Part shown: positions 1-16,049 of the stretch, piece by piece
How positions within the stretch are numbered: position 1 is the stretch's first letter
How the letters are laid out: every line of letters starts with the position of its first letter
Source of the DNA: Tubulanus polymorphus
Taxonomy: Eukaryota; Nemertea; Palaeonemertea; Tubulaniformes; Tubulanidae
Direction of reading: 5' to 3'
Assembly (NCBI RefSeq): GCF_964204645.1
Contig: NC_134025.1
Span: 28,674,001 to 28,738,000 of the forward strand
Length of the DNA: 64,000 bases
The notes under the pieces: generated by a model
The model's input: only the letters and a program-made list of their open reading frames with translations
Told to the model about the DNA's origin: nothing
The model's database searches: none
Position numbers and translations under genes: made by a program

Positions 1-3000
1 TGTGCTGATATCAACTGACTTCAAATCCAGTGTGACCTGACCTATGCCCTCGTGGCGAGAAAAACGATCGAAATTGTTCACATGAAAAACTAACTGTCTC
101 TCTTTCACTTCCTCGTAAGTTATCGGAAACTTGAAATATTCGTCGAAAACCGGATGACAGGTTTTCCGTTTGACGGATGATTGTCGAGGTTTCGAATCGA
201 CTTGCGGCTGTAGGGCGATCTTTACGTAAGGGTCGCTGAATCCAGTCGTTAAATCTACTGACGGTAAATCTTGAGCTGAAAAACAACAAAAAAACCGTCC
301 TCAACAACATAGCGTAAACCGCGGTGAAAATGTAAAAGCAGGATGCGCGTGCTGCTGCCCTTTAATGGCTTTTGAAGACAGGTTTTGTAAAGACGTAATT
401 TAAACATACACTTGCTTTCCATAAGAAGGCAGGGAAAACATCCGGACAATAATTAGTTCATTGACATTCAGTGAATATGCGACTGGATAGTTCATTAGTA
501 GCGAAATCTCTACCGGGAACACATAGAAAATACAAATCTCTCTCTTGTACAGAAAAAAATTTCGTAGCGCGTTCCCTTGATTAAACTGACTAATCATATT
601 GAATTTTTTGTAAGTTCTCCTTCGAATCGTAGTTCATCGGGAGGTTTTTTGTCATATTCGCCGGAAATATTACAACCAATCCGATTAGATTTGTCCTTGA
701 CATTTAAGTCTTAATCTTTCAACGAGGTCGAAAAGCTTTCTCATTTTGTAATTCCGCGTTATCGGCTTTCTTTTGAACTGTCCCTTTTTTATCGCTTAAG
801 TCATCGCGAACTTAGTGTCATTCAACCTAAAACTTGATTACGATGCTAAATCTAGCGCCTGTTTCTAAGAATCAAACAAAAAGTACGGTTTCAGAAGATT
901 ATGAAAGTCACGTCAACTACGACCTCTCGGAACGTTTATCACATCCTGAATCCCTTTAATACGATGATGCATTTGCACTTTTGTCGCGCACGTTATATAG
1001 TCTTACAAAATCACGGCAAAAATTAGCTGAAATTTCGGAAGACTTACGAATTTAGTTTGAGTTTTTGCGTACGAAGTGCGGGGGCCTAATACAATTTCAG
1101 AATTCCTATATTACGAAGCTTACACGACTGGTTCGATCGAGTAAAGTTGCAGAGCGTGCAGATGAACAGGAAATGTCAAACGTATTGTATTTCAAGGGTG
1201 TGGTGACACAACATTCAAAACTAGAGCGGGATAAAACAGCGCTGATAGAAAACCTCTTTGTCATAGAAACAATAATGACATTATGAATTCGACGTCATAT
1301 GTAAAATAATCTTATTTTCTTGAATATTTATCATAAAAGTGAAATACATGATCTACACCTCGCAAAATTGGGCCACCAATCTGGTAATGTTTCGCGTATT
1401 TGTTACTGTTTGACATCAAAGGCGTGGAATCCGATAAGATGTTCGAAACGTGTGGAACTCTTAATTACTTCAAGCAGTCATCTCAACTGACCATTTTTAA
1501 CATCTTATTTATTATATCCTTACCTTCAATAAGATGTACCACTAGATCGGATGTTTTGAACTCGTATTTCAATCTGACATGTAAACGACCGAGTCTTTTG
1601 ACGCTGTCACCGGATTCCTGGCGTAACACGGCGTCTTTCTTCTGGTACAAATCTGGCTGTATCGTTCCTGTACAGAGAAAGTGAACATATCATGTAACAA
1701 AAAGAATAAATCGGTCATAGATAGAGAGAAAATGAATCAATTGATTTTTTCATCGAAATATTTTCATGGGGTAAAATGTGGTAAAATTGAAGTAAGTGAA
1801 GGAAGTAAGTAAATTCTCAAATATCTTAATATAAGTATGAATATCGGTAGATGATACATCACAAATTCAATCGAAAATTTACATTATTTAGAGGCTTAAG
1901 TGCTTTTTCTTTCGGGGATGAATAACCTACCAAGGGGTACGTCAAACCCGGAACTATTCAGACTGCTATTACTACACGCTCCAATACTGATATTATCATC
2001 AACTGGAGACTCAGGGACTTTCATGCGTTCCCTTTGTATTGTCGGTATCGGGCTCGGAGTCGTGCGAGGCTGGACCGGCAGGTGCTCTTTAGAAATCTGC
2101 AGTTCCTGCAATGAAATTCACAGCAAATTTCTTATGAGCTGTAGGTGATGATTCACGTACCCGATATGGGTGGAGTTGTCGGTTTTATGTAGGTTTAGAC
2201 TTTCTCCATAAATAAATCCCATTTATATGTTTTCCATATTTGCCTGTCATCTAAGACCAATACTCACTTATTCAGAATAATCATTGGAAGAGAAATATAA
2301 CTGTTTTATTTTGGCTTTAGGTTTCATCAGTTAATTTGAACGGGTATATATCACTATAGTTCAGGGAAACGCCTATTTATACCAGGTATTCCCGTATACC
2401 ACCCATGTACGTGTTTATATGATTATCATTCGCAAGAAGTGAATTACATCTTATCACCAAATTCTAATTTGGCTAGTTTCACTGGACTAGTTTCAGCCGA
2501 GAAAAATAAGTTGTCCGATGAGTGAATTAAGGTAATGATATATCGGTGTACGATGGATCTACAAATAATCAGTGATAATGGAGTCGCAACTGTGTGATAG
2601 AAGTTGACAGTCGGAATAACCATTACGTGAAGACTATAACGTGTCTAATAATAACTAGTTTGTTTTTTCGAAGTTGCTTTTTCGAAAATAGACAGTGCAA
2701 CTGCTATCATCAGACTGTCAGAGCAACCCGGTGAAACATAAAATCAAGCTCATTTAATACTGGTAATTACCTCAAACAACACAGGCGTCGTTTTCCGAGC
2801 GCGACCTGTCCCCGTTTCTAACGATTTACTCCTATTTTTCCTCCACGGATGAAGGACCTGTAGTTGATTGCTACTCATTGTCGACGGATTTGTCACAAAT
2901 TTTTCGAAAATGAAAATTTACATCAAAATATTTTCAATGTATTTTAAACGGTCGAAGGCAAACATTTACTAATTCCATGATAGATACGATCGTCTATCAG

Positions 3001-4526: not shown

Positions 4527-4876
4527 GAAGACCCCCGGCAGGGATTCGAACCTGATGGCATCGAGATTGCCACGGCACGAAACCCTGCCATAATCGACCG
4601 TGTGCGCAGATACATGCGCAGTTCAGATGATGTGATTTTTAGCCAATCAGAAATCCCGTTTTATTTTAGCCCGGGTTTTCCCATTTATAGTTCTTCCTTG
4701 AAATTTGCCTCAACGATTATACAACGAGCAATCTGATTGGTGCCGCCAGTTTTCGTTCGGAAAGCTGCGCATGTACCTGCGCACCCGGTCTACTGATGCA
4801 GGGGTTCGTGCCGTGGCTGAGTGTAGCGATGCCATCAGGTTCGAGTCCCTGCAGAGGGAGGATGGGAAGACCCTAG
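4527..4876. repeat. Foldback element with tRNA-like arms
   Basis: The reverse complement of 4527-4640 matches 4765-4876 closely: both arms read GCGCATGTAYCTGCGCAC, then a GTTTCGTGCCGTGGC-like segment, then GCCATCAGGTTCGARTCCCT. The last part resembles the B box of RNA polymerase III tRNA promoters (GGTTCGANTCC), and TGGCTGAGTG in the right arm resembles an A box. The centre is also partly self-complementary (GCCAATCAG versus CTGATTGG). This could be two SINEs head to head or one palindromic non-autonomous element. No folded mature tRNA is evident. Confidence 0.65.
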
Positions 4877-9700: not shown

Positions 9701-12700
9701 TTAGTTGGTTTTTTCGCTTTCTTTCGTCTTTTCTTTGAGTCGCTTTCTTGTCTTGATCGGCCCACCGTAAAACAATGCGTCAAAAATTTCAAACGCCGTT
9801 ATAAGACTGGCACCAATACACAGACCCATAGATCCTCCAATATCACCTAAAAAAACAAAACATATATTCAAATCATAAATAGATGATGTCGGTTTTAGGA
9901 TACGGACCAGGATAACTTAGTTTCTTTAATTAAGTGATTAGCTGATGATGTGTATGGCCAATCATAGCATTTATATTACTGTGGATAAGGTAACTTAGGC
10001 TAATACTTACTCCATAGATTGGTAAGAGAATACCCAATTTGTTGCGTGATTTCTTCATAACTCAACTCCGCAATGTAAATGTCGAGGTTTAGAAAATTAT
10101 TCCTAGAAATAGAAGTTGAAGGCGGTGGTTATGGTTTTGAAAAAAAAACATTCGATGATGAAATTACAGAAATAGATGTGGAATTAATTCATATATACAC
10201 ATATTTAATTAACCTTATGAATTCAGTGCTGATTTGACTCGCGTTCAGATATTCGGTGAAATATACTTTGTAATTTTGAAAATGGTCGATAATCAGCGCA
10301 TCGGCTGAGCCAAGAATCGATCTGTAGTTCGATGCGGAGGTCAGGTTGAACAGAGCCGGTTTTAGAAGACCATCTAGTTTTGATCTTGAAACATCGACGA
10401 GATCTAATAGCTCGGCCTGTGTGTTTTGACGAACAGCATCGCACCGTTCCGCCGGAATAAGTTCTTGTAGAACCAGCTCCATATCGTGGCAGGTTGACGT
10501 ATTCATTTGTTCTGGGTAGTAAGATCGTAAGTCGTCTGTTAAGTTCCCGTAAAATGTTGCCGAACATCCTGTAGTCATTAATGTCGTCAGTTTATCCGAT
10601 ATGAAACCCATAACATTAAAGTTGTCGTTAATATTCTGATCGTATATTCTGATTTCATTGAAGACTTTCCACAAGGATAATATTGCATTTTGGACCGGAT
10701 CGCTTATGATCAATTTCGAGAACTCAGTTTTGCTCGAATTTGGATCATTCAGAAAATTGTTAGCTTCATTTACAAAACTTGCGAGTCGTTTTTCGTTTGG
10801 GGAAAATTCGCGAATTGCGGTTTTTATTCCATTACAGAAATTAACGATTTGGGCACTCATCGTGATGAAATCAGAATAAGTGCTTTGAAATATTTCTATT
10901 TCGTTTTTTAAGTGTTCGTATGGCTTGAAAGCAATGCGATCGCTAAGCAAGAATTGATAGTACACGTATTTCTTGGAACCGCTTTCAATTTTTGCAAGCT
11001 GTGACTCTAAACTAGCGAAATCCAAGATGCTCCCATTTCTATATCCGTCCATCAATGCTAGAGTTTCATTGAGACCAGAGATAATACTATCAGATCCTAT
11101 TTTCAATTCATCGAAAATAGATTTTTGCGGGTCCGGAAAGTAACATAGTGCAGAGAAAAGAGCGTCATATTTGGGAACCCGGGTGTATTTATAGATACTC
11201 ATAGGCTTTCCTTCAATGTAACCTCGATACACAAACCCCATTTTCACCTGCGATACGGCAACCAGATTCAACCGACTCAAAGTTCTCGTTATTATCGCGT
11301 CGACTGCAAACGAACTCTGAGAGTCATAACGTGGCCCTAACTGTCCAATCAAAACTCGAAGGTCTGTCAAAAATGCGAAGTAGTCCTTGGCCACGAACTG
11401 GAAATACCGGTCCCGTCTTAGTTCAAATCCACGATTAACGTTATGCCGAATGATATAATCAGCAAACGCTAACACATTATCGTGAACTTTTTTATACGGT
11501 TCAAAAGATTTCTTCATGGCATTGATTTGTTGAAGTATGAAATTCGTCTGTATGTCCACCCGCGAGAATATATCTCCAAGTACAGAGATTTCTCTGATGA
11601 TATTTGTCACATATTGACGATCGACTGTCGCCAGTTTCTTCAGTAATTTGTATCTCTTTTCTCTGGCATTAACGAATTGTCTTGTGACCTGGTGAATATA
11701 AGTTTTATTACGATTAAGCAGTCTATCTCTGTCAATATCAGATAACGCCCCTCCGGATATAAGCGGTTTGTACAGTGTCTGTTTACAAGGGATCGGACAT
11801 CGACAATCTGAAGCTCCGAGACTGTCTGAAAAAGTAAAGATATATTCACCTGAACCGGATTCCACAGTACCCGAGTAAAATTTGATCCAATAATCAGAAC
11901 TTTCAACCAAAATTCGAATTTAAATCTGAAGGTCTTAAGTTGAACTGGGGAAATGGTACTGTGTATTTCACAAGAAATGTTTGTGTACACGATTCTTATA
12001 AGCAATTTCTGTATTACCAAGAATAGGGTCCACGCAATCTGTGATGTCTTCGATGGTGCATTCAGGAAATTGTTCGTCAGCTATATAGAAATAGAACAGA
12101 TCTGATCTGCACTTGAGAGTCAAATTTCTTGTTTAATAGATATTGAGTGATGGTAACAGATTAACAATTCGATACACGAGCCGCGCACAATGCGTTTCTA
12201 CTAAATAAATGATGTTATGGACTCCACCGTTTTTGTGAGTGTCCTTGGCTCACCATTTACGCATTTACTTTGTTTACGGTCGGATAACAACTTATAATAA
12301 TAAAGGTCTAATCGTAATAAGAGTAAGTTGTTTGTTTACCTTCGCTATCATCCAGGTAAAAGTCACGGCATTTACATTTTTCACGTATCTTAGTTTGTTT
12401 ACATTCAGTCTGACAAGCGGCTACGGAGTATGGGAAATATTTCAGTGTGACAGAATCATCGCATTTACCATACGGAGTCTTTAGATTATTCACCTTGAAA
12501 AAACAAACGTTTCTTATTGCAGTCTCGTCCTGGAGACGTGAGAACTTTTTTTAAGAATTTTCTTGGAAATCTTAAATTGAATGAAAGATGATTTAATTCC
12601 GAGTAAAAGTTAAATGGCCACCGGTTGAAAAACCATGAAATAAGATAAGATTGAATTTTTATTAATCTTTATGATTTTTCAAAAAGCAAAAAGATTTAAA

Positions 12701-14340
12701 TATTATGTCGGAACTCACCTCTAGAATACTAACTCCAATGAGGGCATGTGTCCCCGGAGAGAGAGCTTGACCTTGATACTTGACCAGCGGAAACTCCGCG
12801 GGTGAATGTATAAGTACCTTCAAACCAGCGCCGTCTGACGGACCATCCATGTACTCGTATTGTTCAACATTAATCTGCAATCGAAGCCCCCCACTCGTAC
12901 CTAAAACAGAAGGAAGCCGATATTCAGAAAGAAAAGAAACGACCGGTTATAGCATTTTTGGGCGGTTGATGAATTTACCTTCCTGCGTGACCAGTCGTTT
13001 CTTGTTCGCGTGATTACTTCTATGATTGAAGGTAAAACAGACGCCGTAATCCGTGACGATTCGTTTGAAATCACTATGTGCACATTCCGAACCAGCCCAC
13101 TTGCAACTGCGGATAAACAGGAATCATCTGTTAAATCTTGTAAATCATGTTAAATCTGTCATCTATTGTTCATTCTACCTGACGATGAAGTCGGTTACGT
13201 CGTGAGCTGCAGTATTTAAGATATCACTCATCGTTAAATTCATTTTATCGTGATCTTCATGTTCCGAGTCACTGGCGGCATGTGTCGTATAAAACTCGTG
13301 TAACGTGTCATACAAATTCATCTCGGCTATCTTCGATATTCTACCGGCATAAAAAAAAAATCTTTAGCTTCGTTACCGAATGATGCAGTAACAAAGACAA
13401 ATATACTTGTAAAAGTACTTTCTGTCGTTGAAATTTGTGGCGGAATTGGTTTTTTGAAAGGTCCGATCTCTTACCGAAAATCGTTTTGATTGCACAAGGT
13501 AACGGCCGGAAAACTAAGCGATTCATTATAGTTTACTTTGACGTTGACAGAAACTGGTCGATTGAAGAATAGGATGATACTATTGATGGCCTGAATACAG
13601 AACAACGTTAAACCGGCCAGAACTATCATTCCCCAAATCATCCTGAAAAATTAATATTCTAGCCTTTTGAAATGAATGAATGACGGGGTATTCTCGGAAA
13701 CGAAAAGTAATACTCAATTTCAGCAGAGTTGAGTTTTGTTAGATTTTTGTTTTTATTTGTTTGAAGTCGAATGATTAGAAATTAACTAATCTTAACTCAA
13801 AGCTTATTATAAAAAAGGACTCAAACCGAGGCCTCACATACTCCTAGCTTACCGACGAATAAAGTACGGTTGAGCCTCTGTTACACGACTCAAACCATGC
13901 AAAGTTGTATTCTCTGTAAAATCCTTCACCATCTTCAAACACGCACTACCAGATTCAGTTGCATCCTTTTCAACCGTTTCCATGTCTTCGGCTTTCAGAC
14001 AGTTTTCCGCTTTACTAGAAACATCGTCCTTGACGTTTCTATCATTCTTATTCTCATCCGATATTTCTTCGAAACCATCATCAGTTTCTGCAGTAATATG
14101 TGTCGTCTCAAAGCTACTGTCAATCTTAGAATGAACATCCTCGTTTGAACTTTCATCGAGAAATTCTCTTTTAGACGTGGCTTCATCTTCACCATTGTCA
14201 GTATGGCCCTCGCTATTTACGACATTTTCTTCAACAACAACGCATTCCTCAGAAATGGCCATGTCTATTTTACATGTATCCACCACTGATTCTTTCGCTT
14301 TATTCATCTCTTTATTCTCACTTTCATTATCGCTACACAT
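9701..14340 (-). CDS. DEG/ENaC (acid-sensing-like) sodium channel with giant extracellular insertion
   Basis: Trimeric, amiloride-sensitive-type cation channel subunit of the plasma membrane. Ten exons: 14340-13853, 13642-13475, 13340-13179, 13106-12979, 12900-12719, 12493-12340, 12080-12018, 11825-10214, 10102-10011 and 9846-9701. They sum to 3195 nt, exactly 1064 codons plus stop. An acidic cytosolic tail of about 145 residues precedes the HG gating motif (TLHGLSRV). TM1 follows at about 163-190, then FPAVTLCNQNDF, the conserved extracellular cysteines (including KCKCRDFY), TDCVDPILD and CRCPIPC at about 457-463. Exon 9 (LDIYIAELSYEEI) matches the last palm strand. Exon 10 starts with DIGGSMGLCIGASLITAFEIFD, the TM2 and selectivity-filter region with GAS. 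About 554 residues separate CRCPIPC from GGSMG, versus about 75 in vertebrate ASICs. The extra part sits within exon 8 and looks helical. Family certain; ligand unknown. Confidence 0.92.
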
Positions 14341-15093: not shown

Positions 15094-16049
15094 TTACTTG
15101 TCAGACATCATTGCTAAAAATTCTGAAAAAAATACCGTAATTATACTCAACAGCGACAAATCAATTTGATAGTCATATCACTAAAACCTCATCCATTTAA
15201 CAGCACAATGCCGCTTTTGTCAACTACGAACCTTCATAGTTTATTTTGCCGTCACCGTCCAGATCAGCTTCTCTTATCATTATTTCGACCTCTTCTTTAG
15301 ATATCACTTCACCTGAATTATTTTCAAGGTAATCAACAAACATCATGACACGAATCGGGAATTAGAAAACCATTCTCAAGAAATAGCAGAACATAATACC
15401 TAATCCATCCATAACAGACCGCAATTCAGTCGGGGTAATGAAACCATCACCATTTTGATCAAATATTTTAAATGCAGCCTTAGCTTCTTCAGCCGGAGAC
15501 ATCTTTTTACATTTCAGAACCATGACGTTGTAAAACTCATCGAGTTCAATAGTTCCATTCCCTAAAATATTCAATTACGCGTCGTTGTGGTTTCAAATGG
15601 TACTAAACGAATTAAGAACCGATTTAGATTAAACTTATTCGTCAGGAAATAGATATCGACTTTCTGTACTTGGGAAACCTGCAACACCTACCATCTTCAT
15701 CGACGGATCGTATGATCGCCTGTATCCTTTCTTCGGTCGTATTTTTACCCAACGCCTTGAACACCTCCTCCAATTCTTTTGAAGTTATCTTTCCGTCGTG
15801 GTTTTTGTCAAACATCTTAAACGCATCTTCATATTCTATTGAACGAGAAGCGATGTAATTTATCAAGATCGTTTAAATTTCGACGTAAGTTAATAATGTT
15901 ATGTGTTTGAGTGTAGCAATGTAATATTCAGGACAATGTCAGATTAAACTGTAGAATTGAGTTATTTGACCCACAACCGCGGAACCGTGGCCAGATCGAG
16001 GAATTGATTACATACCTGCTTTCTGAGCCGGAGTTAATTCATTCGCCAT
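15094..16049 (-). CDS. Calmodulin-like protein, four EF hands
   Basis: Calcium sensor that should bind target peptides in the cytosol as calmodulin does. Five coding exons: 16049-16016, 15835-15692, 15561-15400, 15312-15232 and 15122-15094. They total 450 nt, giving 149 residues, the length of calmodulin itself. It starts [12 protein letters not shown], like calmodulin's MADQLTEEQIAE. The four loops are at 21-32 ([12 protein letters not shown]), 57-68 ([12 protein letters not shown]), 94-105 ([12 protein letters not shown]) and 130-141 ([12 protein letters not shown]). All keep Asp at position 1, Gly at 6 and Glu at 12, so four functional calcium sites are expected. The sequence between loops differs clearly from true calmodulin, so this is a diverged paralogue, not the conserved gene. 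A broken copy lies upstream at 19.3-21.0 kb with the same exon borders, showing tandem duplication. Confidence 0.93.

Follow-up and report, generated by a model that had tools for sequence, protein, structure and literature searches.

Putative ASIC-like DEG/ENaC channels of Tubulanus polymorphus with a large, fast-evolving helical domain in the knuckle

DEG/ENaC channels answer many stimuli through one compact ectodomain. What role could be played by a family member in which a single exon adds several hundred residues to that ectodomain? Such a gene lies in a stretch of 64,000 nucleotides from Tubulanus polymorphus (assembly GCF_964204645.1, NC_134025.1, positions 28,674,001-28,738,000), hereafter the window, whose coordinates are used below for the channel gene; in our contig labels the window is C1:28674001-28738000, and other loci are given on C2, C4, C6, C10 and C11. 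Sequence comparison and structure prediction lead us to lean towards the view that the gene belongs to a group of ASIC-like DEG/ENaC channels carrying a fast-evolving helical crown on knuckle helix alpha-6, which would serve as a sensor or attachment head.

The gene occupies ten exons on the minus strand (14340 to 9701) and was rebuilt as a protein of 1064 amino acids, with GT at 9 of 9 donors, AG at 9 of 9 acceptors, and a frame continuous through all ten exons; the intact reading frame with HG, FPAVTLC and GGSMG...GAS, which a preliminary description of this DNA had proposed, was thus recovered. All marks of a DEG/ENaC subunit are present: the HG motif (residue 148), two transmembrane segments (TM1 and TM2; hydropathy peaks at residues 169 and 1024), FPAVT (as FPAVTLC, 207), a Cys-rich ectodomain (including CRCPIPC, 456-462) and the GxS filter (GAS, 1028), with NNFLNLD at 987 and DIGGSMG at 1018. 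The spliced protein matches Pfam ASC (PF00858) with an E value of 1.5e-87 over two stretches, the better of which covers residues 141-485.

The additional residues are encoded by exon 8 (10214..11825, minus strand), a single open, in-frame exon of 1612 nucleotides (nt) whose limits are exactly those first proposed, and which, by alignment with ASIC1 and with a paralogue, carries CRCPIPC, strand beta-10, the start of alpha-6, the insert, and the end of alpha-6 (..STEFIR). Taken alone, exon 8 has no Pfam match at thresholds of E up to 0.1 or E up to 1. Between the PC of CxCxxPC and the palm strand NNFLNLD there are 524 residues in place of the short knuckle segment of ASIC1 (6ave), which has 35; from PC to DIGG the figures are 555 and 66. 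The large insertion between CxCxxPC and TM2 therefore stands as described, whereas its size, put at about 470 residues, was too low: comparison with ASIC1 gives about 489. The approximate limits of the extra helical domain, based on an insert alignment (made without locus L053) and an AlphaFold model, are 10240..11691 (minus strand; exon residues ~45-528).

Because the ASIC1 alignment matches the flanks on either side, with the ASIC alpha-6 region falling on YGKELSMVKIPSKAS before the insert and on AKYLAKK..EQYIGEN after it, and with the residues 3' of the insert aligning to the end of KYLAKKYNKSEQYIGEN, the insert is placed by sequence within knuckle helix alpha-6. The collar of ENaC consists of knuckle and finger (available text of PMC6197857), which puts the insert at the top collar, rather than near the wrist and thumb as had been supposed. 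Each of the six insert-lacking DEG/ENaC genes examined in the same genome has the normal short segment. In two of these (L001, L002), the region from the cysteines to TM2 is a single open frame of ordinary length; in the four intron-split paralogues (4/4), the last two bases of the exon are the first two of an Arg codon and GT follows, and window exon 8 ends identically. A separate observation concerns another DEG/ENaC gene (L043, C6:3250001-3260000), which appears to have a Thr/Ser/Pro-rich, mucin-like stretch before beta-11 (ENFIKIDVYFEDLNEE, ~C6:3255963-3256630), near the site of the helical insert and unrelated to it in sequence; introns there are not resolved.

When the genome (268 Mb, 77 contigs) was searched with three different inserts, in conjunction with fetched regions, at least 26 loci were found to bear an insert at the same site, 19 of them read and seven known by match only, so the insert is not the lone oddity it had seemed. 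The read loci comprise the window gene, two others on C1 (0.96 and 26.8 Mb), two single loci on C6 (0.54 and 4.09 Mb) plus a nine-gene tandem array there (7.11-7.18 Mb), two on C4 (5.44 Mb), and one each on C2 (26.1 Mb), C10 (10.0 Mb) and C11 (8.18 Mb). Two of the seven match-only loci are weak (C2 1.51 Mb, a short match with E 3e-5; C11 7.55 Mb, E 0.06). Since 18 further copies were read at the same place in the same genome, the insert is not a product of chance. Every one of the 26 insert loci has, within 3.3 kb, a DEG/ENaC exon match separate from it. Of the 42 TM1-region matches detected, 24 pair with an insert locus, and two insert loci have no scored TM1 match of their own; 97 DEG/ENaC matches were used and 93 of 156 first-look candidates scored, so these counts are lower bounds. 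The insert is open in one stretch in 18 of the 19 read copies; the nineteenth is split over two exons. The sole intron inside an insert among these copies was seen in L042 (C6:4.09 Mb; positions 1600-2400, minus strand).

Two subgroups can be distinguished. The window subgroup has GGSMG or GGAMG where read, and its member at C1:26.8 Mb, the nearest relative of the window gene, is 30% identical to the whole of exon 8 (E 7e-75), with similar limits in the remaining exons. The larger subgroup has GGSAG or GGTAG; in four genes read and in the nine array genes, the insert is followed by a palm strand particular to this subgroup and a GDIGGSAGLYLGAS-type TM2, although one array gene has GGS in place of GAS.

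Inserts and pores have diverged at different rates. Across the C6 tandem array, protein stretches of TM1, beta-11 and TM2 are 89-100% identical to the query copies, except for a split TM1 at 7115 kb, whereas the inserts are 50-82% identical between copies. Among 28 pairs drawn from eight of the nine array genes (the 7115 kb copy, with its TM1 exon split between two frames, was dropped), mean nonsynonymous (dN) and synonymous (dS) divergences are 0.030 and 0.197 for the pore vs. 0.267 and 0.528 for the insert, giving ratios of means (dN/dS, or omega) of 0.15 and 0.51, respectively; insert dN exceeds pore dN in 28 of 28 pairs. On these figures the insert is constrained yet fast-changing, a pattern that favours a role in recognition without choosing between ligand and tether. 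The excluded copy (L032, split TM1 exon at C6:7115315-7115441) may be a pseudogene or an assembly error. Also within the array are two closely similar open frames of 852 residues (C6:7128169-7130724 and C6:7176983-7179538; L033 and L038), in the first of which a long Cys-rich ectodomain precedes a match to Pfam 7tm_2 (secretin-family receptor; E 1.8e-26).

The proposal that the insert is a large, separate, helix-rich domain agrees with AlphaFold predictions, in which two diverged members fold confidently on their own. For window exon 8 (17 alignment rows), the mean predicted local distance difference test (pLDDT) score is 83.3 and the predicted template modelling (pTM) score 0.72, with the chain helical beyond the flank and helices of 65 and 91 residues; for a member of the larger subgroup (13 rows, none from the window subgroup), the values are 86.9 and 0.69, and the model contains 68- and 53-residue helices as well as two tiny strands. 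In these insert alignments the L042 row was used without its second insert exon, and the copy at C6 7140 kb, which crosses a locus boundary, was left out, while being kept in the array comparisons. We take the insert to be an elongated, almost all-helical bundle. Foldseek returned no match at E ≤0.001 for either model (the viral library was searched with the window model only). The structural lists for both models include weak likenesses to TTYH, the McpZ chemoreceptor sensor and ClyA-AhlB-type bundles, within the range flagged by the tool as usual for helical models, and designed bundles rank above TTYH, AhlB and McpZ in the second list.

How does this channel relate to those already known? 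Among proteins of solved structure, ASIC1 (6ave) comes closest to the channel part (E 5e-64), narrowly ahead of ASIC2 and ASIC5; FaNaC (E 2e-32) and ENaC (~1e-27) come next. With the ASICs (ASIC1, ASIC2, ASIC5/BASIC) it shares HG, TM1, FPAVT, the Cys pattern, beta-11/beta-12 and the GAS filter. In the ASIC1 alignment, however, the window channel has V, E, R and Y at the positions of ASIC residues H73, K211, Y71 and W287, respectively. For this comparison mouse ASIC numbers were matched to the chicken sequence as one higher, a correspondence that we take to hold and that agrees with the aligned letters. H73 and K211 are needed for ASIC proton gating, and Y71/W287 form an aromatic pair (available text of PMC10507113); given their replacement, gating of the ASIC type by protons seems unlikely in the window channel. 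Acid sensitivity of another kind is possible by analogy, as proton-activated DEG/ENaCs without those ASIC residues exist (PMC10507113, same text). We class the gene as a new DEG/ENaC variant and not as an ASIC.

Like the window channel, the peptide-gated FaNaCs are invertebrate DEG/ENaCs, and FaNaC alpha-6 contributes to the ligand pocket; the available text of PMC11026163 mentions no comparable domain for FaNaC. Unlike them, the window channel has the filter GAS, not GIS, and its match to FaNaC is weaker than that to ASIC1. No GRIP-type insertion was found in the window channel, whose finger shows nothing of that size inserted when aligned with ASIC1. The GRIP domain of ENaC is smaller than the window insert and lies between finger alpha-1 and alpha-2, whereas the insert lies in knuckle alpha-6 and is predicted to be almost all helical. 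The two are alike as lineage-specific extracellular insertions, and GRIP controls gating (available text of PMC6197857). The literature searched (titles and abstract starts, with most subscription papers and all preprints outside coverage) held no description of such an insert or of a named subfamily bearing it, and none was found in term-matched passages of PMC9949801, PMC10507113, PMC9822975 and PMC10148893; within that scope, the earlier impression that no family member with this layout has been described holds. Unannotated relatives in other proteomes are likely.

In a trimer, three helical bundles would stand on the knuckle-finger collar, forming a crown or antenna that extends beyond the usual channel. 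Such a crown may engage matrix, a ligand or a partner protein outside the cell. A change in the crown could shift alpha-6 relative to the neighbouring subunit's finger, a movement that would be relayed to thumb, wrist and gate in the manner of FaNaC and ASIC; paralogues would then differ in their crowns while sharing a nearly identical pore. In FaNaC1, the agonist lies between the finger helices and the adjacent subunit's alpha-6, and movement reaches thumb and wrist through the finger (available text of PMC11026163). That the domain might act as a ligand-binding or tethering cap, as the preliminary description suggested, stays an inference.

Several observations weigh against this reading. 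Alpha-6 of FaNaC1 is itself relatively static in gating (PMC11026163, same text). The insert omega of ~0.5 in the array indicates constraint, not positive selection, and gene conversion of pore exons, hinted at because pore dS is also lower than insert dS, could account for part of the contrast between pore and insert. Because insert diversity is spread and not confined to one part of the domain, no binding patch can be named. The two models are not fully independent, as 12 of the 13 alignment rows behind the second were also used for the first. Finally, profiles of the two insert subgroups match over 80 columns (probability 97) when the shared flank is included; with the channel flank removed, the match shrinks to 44 columns, also collinear, with E 0.0065 and probability 6%, and a reversed control for the flank-free comparison gave E 0.05 and probability 1. 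Since the subgroups are unalignable by profile beyond the first helix, the case for a single origin of the whole insert depends on its position, the flanks and a tree of weak support; we favour a single gain without regarding it as proven. The window subgroup and the larger subgroup might instead have acquired their helical inserts separately at this one position, as the poor flank-free match would allow; the mucin-like stretch before the palm strand in the DEG/ENaC gene at C6:3256 kb also implies that this site may tolerate inserts. We nonetheless consider two separate gains rather improbable: the 44 matching columns are collinear and follow directly after the junction, helix layout looks similar in both models, with TTYH, AhlB and McpZ weakly listed for both, and a tree of 269 columns with the knuckle excluded (12 insert-bearing genes, including five of the nine array genes, six insert-lacking genes, and ASIC1/2) unites all 12 carriers in one clade with support of 76, leaving ASIC1/2 outside, even though its deep nodes are weak (46-76, one 97).

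Other functions must also be weighed. The strongest rival is a mechanical tether, in which a glycosylated helical crown links the channel to the extracellular matrix or a neighbouring cell, and pull opens the pore. Inserts in the window gene and its four nearest relatives contain 5-10 N-glycosylation sequons each, and those of the other twelve 4-8 (17 rows); ENaC knuckle N-glycans have been proposed as shear-force tethers (available text of PMC7958617), and the long, presumably stiff, predicted helices would fit a lever. A generic tether, however, gives no reason for tandem copies to diverge strongly, no adhesion domain is recognised in exon 8 by sequence (Pfam, E up to 1), and the structural lists give weak helical-bundle matches only, which include the cytoplasmic adhesion proteins talin, vinculin and FAK; a tether is possible, though we would not bet on it. 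Less probable still is an assembly head that determines trimer partners or clusters trimers, its fast change preventing paralogue mixing. ENaC subunits contact one another through knuckle and finger, at interfaces that vary from subunit to subunit (available text of PMC6197857), and nine paralogues lie together in tandem, yet nearly 500 residues far exceed what an interface needs. A further possibility, that the open frame of exon 8 runs through non-coding or degenerate DNA in a pseudogene, or in a gene spliced around it, is scarcely credible given that 18 of the 19 read copies are open in one stretch (the other over two exons), that the insert is under the constraint noted above, and that splice sites are intact.

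The remaining exons of the window gene, all on the minus strand, follow the family plan. Exon 1 (13853..14340; rebuilt gene model) holds the start codon, an acidic N terminus of ~140 residues, intracellular by family topology, and the HG motif. Exon 2 (13475..13642; 61% paralogue match) encodes TM1 and FPAVTLC, exon 3 (13179..13340) the finger, and exon 4 (12979..13106) finger and palm, each supported by gene model and paralogue. Exon 5 (12719..12900) encodes beta-ball and palm (GGLRLQINVEQYEY; Pfam ASC E 5e-9 on its open reading frame (ORF), paralogue 69%), and exon 6 (12340..12493; Pfam ASC E 3.5e-8 on its ORF, paralogue) the Cys-rich thumb, with an additional in-frame acceptor at 12529 (+12 residues), where the paralogue at C1:26.8 Mb agrees with the shorter form. 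Exon 7 (12018..12080; gene model and paralogue) continues the thumb; exon 9 (10011..10102; gene model, ASIC1 alignment) encodes palm strands beta-11 and beta-12 (NNFLNLDIYIAELSYEEITQQ); and exon 10 (9701..9846; Pfam ASC E 4e-6 on its ORF) encodes DIGGSMG, TM2 with the GAS filter, the C terminus and the stop. A calmodulin-like gene of several exons, marked by EF-hand matches, lies immediately upstream of the channel gene in the same orientation (15094-16049, minus strand, limits by eye). Elsewhere in the window, a fold-back element (4532-4858) has inverted arms at 4532-4563/4827-4858 (91%) and 4569-4621/4765-4817 (85%), with tRNA-like letters, by eye, in the outer arms.

A fast-changing domain on a constant pore suggests an unstudied group of receptor-like channels. 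Tentatively, T. polymorphus may possess a lineage-specific repertoire of ionotropic receptors, at least two dozen DEG/ENaC channels of one pore design whose diversified crowns each recognise their own chemical, peptide or cell-surface partner; such a repertoire would resemble expanded chemoreceptor families, but be based on sodium channels. A class of subunits roughly doubled by a helical domain in the knuckle that evolves much faster than the pore would constitute a new architecture, and its many paralogues would provide a natural experiment on how a stimulus is coupled to the gate in DEG/ENaC channels.
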